Positions 8,099-38,179 of a DNA stretch of 38,179 nt are shown here, piece by piece. Source of the DNA: Sulfurovaceae bacterium (GTDB lineage: Bacteria > Campylobacterota > Campylobacteria > Campylobacterales > Sulfurovaceae); assembly GCA_016744315.1 (NCBI GenBank), contig JADGER010000005.1:1-38179 (forward strand). Reading direction: 5' to 3'. Numbering within the stretch: position 1 is the stretch's first letter; every line of letters starts with the position of its first letter. The notes beneath the pieces are model-generated. The model ran no database searches and was not told the origin of the DNA. It saw only the letters and a list, made by a program, of their open reading frames with translations. The position numbers were made by a program, and so were the translations under genes.

Positions 8099-8737
8099 CT
8101 ATGATTTTCCATCAATAAGAGCCATAATAAAAGGTGCCATAACTAATAAAAATATATAAAATAATATATAAAATAAAAAAGTTTTTAAAGAACCTCGTTT
8201 ACACTCTTTCCAAAATTGCTTTGTTTTCTCATCCATATTTTCCTCAATAAAAATATCTGTATATTTTTTAATACCTTCTAAATTAGTAATCATTTGGAGT
8301 TCTTCATCCTTTGAAATAGTAATTTTTAAAGAATATTTTTTCTTTTTTATATGAATAAAGAGCATCTTATACATAATATTCAAAATTGTTCTTTTTTGAG
8401 TATAATAATAATTTTTGTACTCTATCTTATCAATCTCTGACCATTGATATATTTTTATTTTTGGGTTTAAAATACCCGGACTAGTAATTGTCAAGCCTAT
8501 TTTATAATCAAACTCTAAAAGAGTTTCTTCATATGCTTCAATAAAATTATAACTTTGTATAGAAAATTTATTATGAACAAGCAAGGGTTGTTTTTGCAAG
8601 TTTTTTTGTATTGTATCGATCTCTTCTTCTATTTGGTATGGTGTCTCTCCATTTATACCATACCGACAATTCCAACATACATCATATTCGATACTATTAC
8701 TTTTTTTACACTTATTACATATCCATATATGTTTCAT
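8099..8737 (-). CDS. Zinc-ribbon protein with C-terminal membrane segment
   Basis: This 212-residue protein starts with a zinc ribbon: C7-x-x-C10 and C21-x-x-C24. A middle region (about residues 65-170) is a run of alternating strands with tryptophan and tyrosine (KIYQWSEIDKIEYKNYYY), which resembles bacterial PH-like domains. It ends with a strong hydrophobic segment (FYILFYIFLLVMAPFIMALI). GAGGAAG precedes the ATG. It is the last gene of the luxS cluster, 9 bases after murU. Role unknown; a tail-anchored sensor or scaffold is possible. Confidence 0.65.
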   Translation of the reverse strand: MKHIWICNKCKKSNSIEYDVCWNCRYGINGETPYQIEEEIDTIQKNLQKQPLLVHNKFSIQSYNFIEAYEETLLEFDYKIGLTITSPGILNPKIKIYQWSEIDKIEYKNYYYTQKRTILNIMYKMLFIHIKKKKYSLKITISKDEELQMITNLEGIKKYTDIFIEENMDEKTKQFWKECKRGSLKTFLFYILFYIFLLVMAPFIMALIDGKS

Positions 8738-8746
8738 TATCTTCCT

Positions 8747-9394
8747 CTAGCTATCTAAATCTCTATTGAGTTGTTCTAACCTTTGGGGAGTTCCTATATC
8801 TCTCCACTCTCCTTTGTATACCTCTCTGCTTATTGTATTTGTAGCTATTCCTTCTTTTAGAAGTGGTGCTAATGACTGTTTGCCATACGGTAAATTATCA
8901 AAAAACTGTGGGCTATAATATGCGATACCTGAGAAAGTATAATAATCATTTCCATTTTCTAAAGTAAAATCACCTTTGGGATGCTGTGGAGGATTTGGGA
9001 CTAAGATAAGATGTGCTGAAGTTTCTTTGAATTGAAAGTTTGAGTTATAGGGGTAATCACACCATATATCTCCATTAATAATCAAAAATTGGCTATCTCC
9101 AAGTAATGGAAGAGCTTTGATAATTCCTCCTGCTGTCTCTAATGCTCCCTCTTTTTGTTCATCAGAATAAATAATTGAAATACCATAGTGACTCCCATCA
9201 CCTAAATACTCTTGAATCTTCCAACCTAAGTGGGCTATATTAATAATAACTTCTTTAAAACCAGCATCAACTAAGCGTTTGATATGCCATACTACCAAAG
9301 GTTCTCCTGCTACTTTGAGCAGTGGTTTTGGTGTATGTTTTGTTAGTGGTAGCATTCGATTACCTAGCCCTGCACATAAAATCATAGCTTTCAT
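8747..9394 (-). CDS. murU: MurU-like nucleotidyltransferase
   Basis: This 215-residue protein is a sugar-phosphate nucleotidyltransferase with MILCAGLGNRMLPLT at the N terminus (nucleotide-binding loop) and the lysine of KPKPLL-type sequence (TPKPLLKV), then the metal-binding ING-D strand LIINGDIW. Length and sequence fit MurU, which makes UDP-MurNAc from MurNAc-1-phosphate in cell-wall recycling. Another sugar-1-phosphate remains possible, because the kinase and phosphatase partners (AmgK, MupP) are not visible here. Its ATG overlaps the end of the MnmD-like gene by four bases (ATGA), so it is translationally coupled. Confidence 0.8.
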   Translation of the reverse strand: MKAMILCAGLGNRMLPLTKHTPKPLLKVAGEPLVVWHIKRLVDAGFKEVIINIAHLGWKIQEYLGDGSHYGISIIYSDEQKEGALETAGGIIKALPLLGDSQFLIINGDIWCDYPYNSNFQFKETSAHLILVPNPPQHPKGDFTLENGNDYYTFSGIAYYSPQFFDNLPYGKQSLAPLLKEGIATNTISREVYKGEWRDIGTPQRLEQLNRDLDS

Positions 9395-36703: not shown

Positions 36704-37099
36704 ATGGAAAAAATTACACCTCTTGATGAAGAGTATGCTTTTGTAGATGGTGTGATTATGAGTGAAACTGACCTCAAAGGTATTATTACTTATGCAAATC
36801 GAAAGTTTTGTGAAGTCGCAGGATATGACAAAAAAGAGCTTAAAGGTAAAAATCATAATATCATTAGGCATCCAGATATGCCAAAGGCTGCATTTAAACA
36901 ACTATGGGATACTATCAAGAAAGGTCAAGATTGGACAGGTATAGTTAAGAATCTGCGAAAAGATGGAAAATATTATTGGGTACATAGTTTTGTCTCCCCT
37001 ATCGTCAAAAATGATACTATTACAGGCTATAGTGCAGCAAGAAGACAGGCTACTAAACTAGAAATAGAAGAAGCAAAAGAAAATTATAACTTACCATAA
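36704..37099 (+). CDS. PAS domain sensor protein (Aer-like)
   Basis: The 131-residue protein is one PAS domain: SETDLKGIITYANRKFCEVAGYDKKELKGK, RHPDMPKAAF and DWTGIVKNLRKDGKYYWV. It resembles the flavin-binding PAS of Aer-type aerotaxis receptors, but has no attached transmembrane or signalling domain. It presumably works through a partner; the acidic repeat protein follows within 60 bases, and may be that partner. AAAAAAAGGAATTTAA precedes the ATG. Confidence 0.88.
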   Translation: MEKITPLDEEYAFVDGVIMSETDLKGIITYANRKFCEVAGYDKKELKGKNHNIIRHPDMPKAAFKQLWDTIKKGQDWTGIVKNLRKDGKYYWVHSFVSPIVKNDTITGYSAARRQATKLEIEEAKENYNLP

Positions 37100-37154: not shown

Positions 37155-38179
37155 ATGTATTATATTATTAATATAGATAAACAGGTTATAGCAGCGGATG
37201 ATGAATTTTTGAATTTATTAGGTATGGATACTATACAAGATTTATTTCTAGGGCTAAACCAAAAAAAGATTATATTAGATACTAATTTAGAATATGATAA
37301 ACTCAAGGTTAAAACTTCACAACAAGATATAAGCCTCAATACAGAAACTTACCAACTTATGACTCTTATTGGCAAAGCTACACTTATAAAAGTAAACCAA
37401 GAAAACACTCATCCAAAGCAAGATACTATGACTATAGGTGAGAATATAGTAGCAAAAAAGTCTATATACAAAGAAGAAACTCATAAAAGTAACTTAGATA
37501 CTCTCCTTGAACAAATAACTCCTTTAGATATAAAAGACCATACGGATGAAGAAAGTATACAAGAAAAACAAACAATTATTACAAAAGAACCAGAAGTAAC
37601 AAATGATGATTTACTTTTTGAAGAGGTTGAAAATCTTCTCATGAAGGAAGAAAAAATTATAACCCCTGCTCCTGTAAGTAAAGCACCTGAAACAATCAAT
37701 GATGATTTACTTTTTGAAGATGATGATCTTCTTTTTGAGGAAGAAGAGAAGAAAGAGGAAGAAATTCTAGCTCCTGCTCCTGCAACTAAAGAACCTGAAG
37801 CAACAAATGATGATTTACTTTTTGATGATGATGATCTCCTTTTTGACGAAGAGGAAGAAGTTGTAGTTCCTGCTCCTGCGATTAAAGAACCTGAAGCAAC
37901 AAATGATGATTTACTTTTTGAGGATGATGATGATCTTCTTTTTGAAGAAGAGGAAGAAGTTGTAGCTCCTGCTCCTGTAACTAAAGAACCTGAAGCAACA
38001 AATGATGATTTACTTTTTGAAGAGGATGATGATCTTCTTTTTGAAGAAGAGGAAGAAGTTGTAGCTCCTACTCCTGTAACTAAAGAACCTGAAGCAACAA
38101 ATGATGATTTACTTTTTGAGGATGATGATGATCTTCTTTTTGAAGAAGAGGAAGAAGTTGTAGCTCCTGCTCCTGTAAC
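37155..38179 (+). CDS. Acidic repeat protein with N-terminal PAS-like region (partial)
   Basis: The reading frame starts at ATG 37155 (AAGGAG 11 bases upstream) and stays open to the window end, 341 codons. The first 35 residues (YYIINIDKQVIAADDEFLNLLG) look like the start of a PAS-type domain. From about residue 150 it is a series of acidic repeats with DDLLF twice per unit and P-A-P spacers. The C terminus is outside the window. Related Campylobacterota proteins may carry a phosphotransfer (HPt) domain there; I cannot see it. It follows the PAS gene closely. Confidence 0.8.
   Translation, partial: MYYIINIDKQVIAADDEFLNLLGMDTIQDLFLGLNQKKIILDTNLEYDKLKVKTSQQDISLNTETYQLMTLIGKATLIKVNQENTHPKQDTMTIGENIVAKKSIYKEETHKSNLDTLLEQITPLDIKDHTDEESIQEKQTIITKEPEVTNDDLLFEEVENLLMKEEKIITPAPVSKAPETINDDLLFEDDDLLFEEEEKKEEEILAPAPATKEPEATNDDLLFDDDDLLFDEEEEVVVPAPAIKEPEATNDDLLFEDDDDLLFEEEEEVVAPAPVTKEPEATNDDLLFEEDDDLLFEEEEEVVAPTPVTKEPEATNDDLLFEDDDDLLFEEEEEVVAPAPV
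37602..38179 (+). repeat. Tandem DDLLF repeat array inside the acidic protein
   Basis: The motif N-D-D-L-L-F recurs at 37602, 37698, 37806, 37902, 38001 and 38100, spaced 96, 108, 96, 99 and 99 bases, all multiples of three. The consensus unit is about 33 residues: NDDLLFEDDDDLLF, an E-rich stretch, then V-V-A-P-A-P-V-T-K-E-P-E-A-T. Later units are nearly identical at DNA level, so recent expansion or copy-number change is likely. The array runs past the window edge. Confidence 0.9.

Follow-up and report, generated by a model that had tools for sequence, protein, structure and literature searches.

The window analysed in this work, a stretch of 38,179 nucleotides from a Sulfurovaceae bacterium, is the entire contig C271 of its genome, and its end falls within a tandem repeat that encodes DDLLF motifs. 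The question is which protein carries these repeats and what role they may have in it.

The repeat array and its gene

The DDLLF array announced in the original prediction was recovered by TRF and by dissection into units, which yielded 11 motifs, that is, 11 of the 16 matches to this pattern in the whole genome. TRF reported one tandem array at 37584-38179, with a period of 99 and about 6 copies, and its score of 701-825 compares with 52-70 for the TRF rows elsewhere in the window. The array had been predicted to start at 37602, whereas its true start lies 18 bases further upstream, at 37584. The features of this end of the window are:

36704 to 37099, plus strand: gene of a PAS-domain protein of 131 aa (Pfam PAS_3, 1.8e-19), whose place is kept in strain BB14 and many relatives
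37155 to 38179, plus strand: front part of the HPt-protein gene, 341 codons, with the frame open at the contig end; the BB14 version reaches the HPt domain
37155 to 37400, plus strand: PAS-like N-terminal domain, about residues 1-82, from alignment A2 and the confident model of the relative L022
37401 to 37583, plus strand: linker segment without repeats, assumed to be disordered, since the matching L022 region (residues 90-182) has pLDDT <50
37584 to 37679, plus strand: repeat unit 1, 96 bases, one DDLLF and a degenerate ENLLM
37680 to 37787, plus strand: repeat unit 2, 108 bases, two DDLLF
37788 to 37883, plus strand: repeat unit 3, 96 bases, two DDLLF
37884 to 37982, plus strand: repeat unit 4, 99 bases, two DDLLF, same sequence as unit 6 across 32 codons
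37983 to 38081, plus strand: repeat unit 5, 99 bases, two DDLLF
38082 to 38179, plus strand: repeat unit 6, two DDLLF, at least 96 bases (38082-38177), cut by the contig end

The claim of two DDLLF motifs per unit stands for units 2-6 and fails for unit 1, while the near identity of the last units is evident, as nucleotide identity between units is 0.76-1.00 over all six and 0.92-1.00 among units 3-6, with no difference between units 4 and 6 in the 32 codons compared. Because the contig ends within the array, six units are a lower bound, and since the final 99 bases of the contig are present twice in the window, the repeat probably ended the contig. An open frame on the minus strand at 37481-38179 was regarded as a repeat shadow and set aside.

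By its sequence, the window gene is the front of a protein composed of a PAS-like domain, a disordered acidic linker, a degenerate HPt domain and an HPt domain, calls that are based on VIA-align, weaker Foldseek hits and Pfam. The preceding gene does encode a PAS protein, as had been stated; the PAS-like N-terminal segment of the repeat protein, also proposed at that time, finds its support in fold and not in family matches. In the model of L022, an array-free relative, residues 1-82 are confident and are followed by a linker with pLDDT <50 at residues 90-182, a helical segment (192-278) and an HPt bundle (326-429). The N terminus of this model aligned with a PAS domain at Z 8.3 over 77 residues with an rmsd of 2.6 (VIA-align), and residues 1-82 matched PAS in Foldseek with a probability of 1.00 at E 0.18, both being middling scores. 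Pfam returned no PAS match for the window protein P0001 at E up to 0.1 or for L022 at E up to 1, no PAS family was among the 25 families listed for 43 relatives, and the whole L022 model had no Foldseek match at E up to 0.001.

For the C terminus, which lies beyond the window, the original prediction had proposed a look for an HPt or other domain, and an HPt domain was indeed found. Pfam Hpt (PF01627) matched the C terminus of BB14 at 7.9e-7 and all 43 of the 43 relatives at E up to 1, and residues 320-431 of L022 are predicted to form a four-helix bundle, which aligns with solved HPt domains at Z up to 14.0. HxLKG, the motif with the phospho-accepting histidine, occurs in 140 of the 145 HPt proteins, the fragment from the window's own genome included, and is missing in four loci of genus g3 and in one protein cut by a contig end; the window itself ends upstream of the HPt domain and hence of this motif. 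None of 120 degenerate HPt segments holds HxLKG, although these are BLAST-aligned segments that may not span the whole domain. In the clade of the window, the sequence that connects the degenerate HPt with the HPt domain contains another acidic stretch, one with abundant Glu accompanied by Tyr or Phe (L014 9562-10545, L021 4977-5660, L058 5474-6808, L020 1-423); in L021 the frame changes inside this stretch, perhaps through an assembly error.

The locus and its predicted phosphorelay

Among named relatives, Sulfurovaceae bacterium BB14 (L014) is the nearest, and its copy of the region lies on a single scaffold that is interrupted by 100 bases of N at 8649-8748. The BB14 gene starts with a PAS-like part and continues through DDLLF and YDDFL repeats, the degenerate HPt and a stretch rich in E and Y to the C-terminal HPt. 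The window's genome has the HPt end of the gene at the start of another contig, C242, with 94% identity to BB14, where it is followed by a kinase of 1136 residues and a receiver of 121 residues, with a lon-like gene on the opposite strand (lon and uvrC are the names that we presume for these genes throughout). No degenerate HPt segment was detected in this genome, so the join of C271 to C242 rests on the BB14 gene order. Pfam assigns NIT, HisKA, HATPase and receiver domains to the BB14 kinase, and the modelled C terminus of the own-genome kinase consists of a receiver (8-130), a low-confidence linker with basic repeats and a receiver-like domain (266-352). A hybrid kinase with a receiver, an HPt protein and a further receiver are encoded together, both on C242 and in BB14, and the Asp motif of the kinase receiver is present in 128 of 132 complete kinases. 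Judged by architecture, the HPt protein, the NIT hybrid kinase and the stand-alone receiver would form a His-Asp-His-Asp phosphorelay.

This arrangement is widely kept. With a limit of E up to 1e-10, 159 of 175 Sulfurovaceae genomes yielded a relative, and the loci examined were taken from part of these 159, most of genus g2 being left out. The HPt gene was found in 145 of the 147 loci (two of the 147 being the window's own two contigs) and adjoins the kinase in 141 of the 142 that hold both, while the stand-alone receiver is encoded beside the kinase in most loci listed. The order uvrC-PAS-HPt-kinase-REC, in many cases with lon, recurs among 20 further loci, of which 18 belong to other families of the order, and some of the 20 encode two or three HPt-like domains. 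In family f4 (L204-L211) about 410 bases separate the HPt gene from the kinase, a gap that holds a small gene of about 130 codons in L204 and L209. These observations give a frame for a cluster of PAS protein, HPt protein, NIT hybrid kinase and REC that is kept across Sulfurovaceae and in further families of the order.

A deviation was observed in four of the 11 g3 loci fetched (L127, L128, L130 and L173). In these the HPt histidine is replaced by Arg, the kinases of the same loci have 529-609 residues with no receiver found, and the stand-alone REC was not found; the HPt-like protein and the kinase are still adjacent. This coupled loss suggests that the HPt histidine, the kinase receiver and the stand-alone REC act together, and the fact that the two large proteins persist without the relay parts is a hint of an additional role, perhaps a structural one.

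Arrays in other species and the linker of the partner kinase

An array was scored where at least 80 residues fall within repeated 6-mers, and L060 and L061 were added by judgement, since an N gap or a contig end interrupts an array built of the L059 unit. By this count 16 of the 120 species analysed carry an array, in seven clades of the kinase tree, and the other 104 have none; L057, whose kinase is cut, has one in addition. The 16 arrays of the core tests include L057 and not L061, and the 16 of the regression include L061 and not L057.

Unit sequences differ strongly between clades. A core of the form acidic-(x)-hydrophobic-pair was present within the repeated 9-mers of 16 of 16 array linkers, compared with an expectation of 9.2 from shuffled units. 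With each repeat counted once, and with counts that include related species and are not independent, the pair preceded by acid-x was enriched over shuffles (98 vs 62.6, z=5.1), while neither an acid directly before the pair (z=0.6) nor K/R-x-pair (z=0.1) was enriched. In an earlier data cut, D-(x)-pair reached z=6.7 in 13 array and 8.6 in 59 non-array linkers, K/R-(x)-pair gave z=-1.6 and -3.6, respectively, and 30 randomly chosen non-array linkers had z=2.2. The suggestion that the repeats could serve as docking sites is supported in part, by the recurring core and by the spaced acid-x-pair, though not by the acid-adjacent pair.

Repeat unit turnover is supported indirectly by the sequences. 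BB14 units are 0.96-0.99 alike among themselves, whereas window and BB14 units in the same register (6 pairs) share 0.83 of nucleotides and 0.71 of amino acids, compared with 0.94 and 0.89 for the N-terminal domain, a pattern that unit turnover and homogenisation would leave. The truncation of array genes at contig ends (L058, L061, L063, L074 and L106) and the N gaps in the loci of two others (L060 and L108) lend further indirect support.

The linker of the partner kinase is a basic repeat in the window's genome and in BB14, with net charges of +24 and +27, respectively, or +25 and +28 when the linker was delimited by the later cut. In a phylogenetic regression with GC over 120 species, the charge density of this linker was higher where the HPt protein carries an array (t=5.87, p=4.2e-8). 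The shift was maintained at array thresholds from 40 to 120 (p 3.8e-6 to 4.2e-8), without the window's own clade (p=7.4e-6), without the two largest clades (p=2.4e-5) and with L060 and L061 as non-arrays (p=9.4e-6), and no single clade's omission removed it. It is composed of both more K/R and fewer D/E. Comparison with the non-array sisters shows a more positive kinase linker in all seven array clades (sign test p=0.016), with positive values in five of them and still slightly negative ones in the two g10 clades. Charge did not shift with arrays in the stand-alone REC (p=0.98, n=114), in the PAS protein (p=0.34, n=89, 5 arrays) or in UvrC (p=0.99, n=91, 9 arrays). Within the kinase, the portion before the linker gave p=0.099, and the receiver (p=0.019) and the C-terminal domain (p=2.6e-3) also shifted slightly. 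The 120 rows derive from 147 loci, of which 132 have a complete kinase; five were dropped for lacking a receiver by pattern (L127, L128, L130, L132, L173) and seven for having no separable C-terminal domain or an HPt linker of <150 residues (L109, L113, L145, L169, L176, L190, L195). The kinase linkers of L025, L064, L106 and L164 were delimited by hand.

Net charge, as distinct from density, was related to arrays weakly in the first array set (p=0.031; 0.099 with GC) and at 5.4e-4 when L060 and L061 were counted as arrays. Whole-linker charge matching was also considered as a general rule and was rejected, the Spearman coefficient between HPt and kinase linkers being -0.04 (n=103). Of 10 long acidic HPt linkers that lack repeats, only one is partnered by a positive kinase linker. 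The kinase linkers are acidic too in L223 (HPt protein net -153, with imperfect repeats) and in L220 (-96).

Some loci carry expansions on the kinase side. In L102 (G123) an acidic tandem repeat with a DLIDL-like core lies on the kinase linker and the HPt linker has no array, and L107 and L149 have long acidic linkers on the kinase. The kinase linker of L172 (genus g3) has a repeat of its own, with 95 repeated residues and net +6, and the HPt linker has no repeat.

Possible roles of the array and known systems

The explanation that we favour, with a confidence just short of even, is that the array linker acts as a multivalent tether that holds the HPt protein to the adjacent kinase in the phosphorelay. 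The array would be a repeat-expanded part of the disordered acidic linker, in a protein that runs from the PAS-like domain through this linker and a degenerate HPt domain lacking the histidine motif to the HPt domain, and this protein would work with a neighbouring kinase composed of NIT sensor, HisKA, HATPase, receiver, linker and degenerate receiver, and with the stand-alone receiver. Each DDLLF-like block may be a weak linear docking motif, and tandem copies would make the linker multivalent and keep the HPt domain close to its own kinase, possibly raising relay flux and limiting cross-talk. Contact would be made through the kinase linker, which is the most likely site because it shifts most with arrays and which adjoins the receiver that must meet the HPt domain, and perhaps also through the degenerate C-terminal receiver of the kinase. 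Unit number would tune avidity and could change by repeat slippage or recombination. The HPt C terminus, the predicted disorder, the adjacency of HPt and kinase genes, the seven array clades with a shared core, the kinase-linker shift and the coupled loss in four g3 loci all support the tether, and the charge covariation may point to binding between the two linkers. Against it stand the 104 array-free species, the uncorrelated bulk charge, the weak net-charge relation in the first array set, the mostly non-positive partners of long acidic non-repeat linkers, the slightly negative g10 linkers, the acidic kinases of L102, L107 and L149, the acidity of both partners in L223 and L220, and the small shifts of kinase receiver and C-terminal domain.

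A real rival is a neutral spacer, a linker that need only be long, soluble and disordered, lengthened by tandem slippage, with repeats that have no binding partner and in which acidic residues and a few hydrophobic ones are tolerated. Most species manage without an array, units are very different between clades, linkers are generally acidic and variable, and in L223 and L220 the acidic expansion has no basic kinase linker. We nevertheless consider this account rather unlikely, since the acidic-hydrophobic core recurs in every array linker tested, more often than shuffled units would give, and since the kinase linker shifts with arrays, whichever clade is omitted, while stand-alone REC, PAS and UvrC do not. 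In a second real rival the partner is the stand-alone receiver of the operon, which the motifs could bind much as peptides of FliM and CheZ bind CheY, so that the last receiver would be kept near the HPt domain. Its gene lies beside the kinase in most loci, many units of other species have an acidic paired-leucine core, and acidic repeats that sit on the kinase instead, as in L102, would fit a third partner. This is improbable, however, as the charge of this receiver shows no shift with arrays, the FliM/CheZ-like spacing HAxHH is only mildly enriched (z=2.7 in arrays, 0.1 in non-arrays), and the window's own units have no hydrophobic residue at -3. The original prediction had suggested a chemotaxis or signalling protein as a possible partner, and acidic-LL motifs do resemble CheY-binding peptides. 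For this genus docking of a chemotaxis protein is very hard to sustain: CheW and FliM were found in 0 of 10 genomes, with positive control genomes, an absence that is not absolute because six of the 10 fall below the bar (≥90% complete and ≤5% contaminated) that four pass, and the locus itself encodes a complete relay.

Returning to the multivalent tether, a broader form of it is possible, if doubtful: matching disordered tethers on two consecutive members of a relay, tandem acidic-hydrophobic motifs on the HPt protein and a kinase linker becoming less acidic or basic alongside them, would have arisen about seven times in Sulfurovaceae by amplification of acidic-hydrophobic docking motifs, with repeat number setting the strength of the complex and perhaps condensation. 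If this were true, repeat number would be an evolvable dial on signalling gain and insulation.

Previous knowledge of phosphorelays places these proteins among familiar types. In the ArcB, BarA and TorS relays, as here, a receiver-bearing hybrid kinase is combined with an HPt domain; the kinase matches the NCBIfam models of BarA, TorS and ArcB, far below their cut-offs, and the modelled HPt fold compares with the ArcB and BarA HPt domains at Z 12.6-12.7. Unlike those systems, the HPt domain here lies on a separate protein with a PAS-like domain, a degenerate HPt and a repeat linker, while the kinase carries a NIT sensor and ends in a degenerate receiver. HptB and Ypd1 are separate HPt proteins of the same fold (Z 13.6 and 11.2-11.5, respectively), to which the protein described here adds the PAS-like domain, the degenerate HPt and the long disordered acidic linker. 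Disordered regions of PopZ, PodJ and SpmX bring kinases together with partners (PMC11326607). These are dedicated scaffolds or regulators, whereas the putative tether, as read from sequence, would be part of a relay protein. In the open-access literature searched by titles and abstract starts, outside which most subscription papers lie, neither a separate HPt protein with an array linker and a correlated kinase linker nor oppositely charged, motif-repeat or condensate-forming kinase/HPt pairs were described. HPt, NIT hybrid kinase and receiver are known parts; the array linker on a separate HPt protein and the correlated kinase linker appear to be new. The CheY-binding peptides of FliM and CheZ are short and acidic with a paired-leucine core, but they are single peptides, unlike the tandem arrays of this genus, in which no FliM or CheW was found. 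Pairing in phosphorelays is usually explained by the specificity of folded surfaces, and the seven array clades, set beside sisters that lack arrays, suggest that fast-evolving disordered tethers on both partners may have a part in setting pairing or gain as well.
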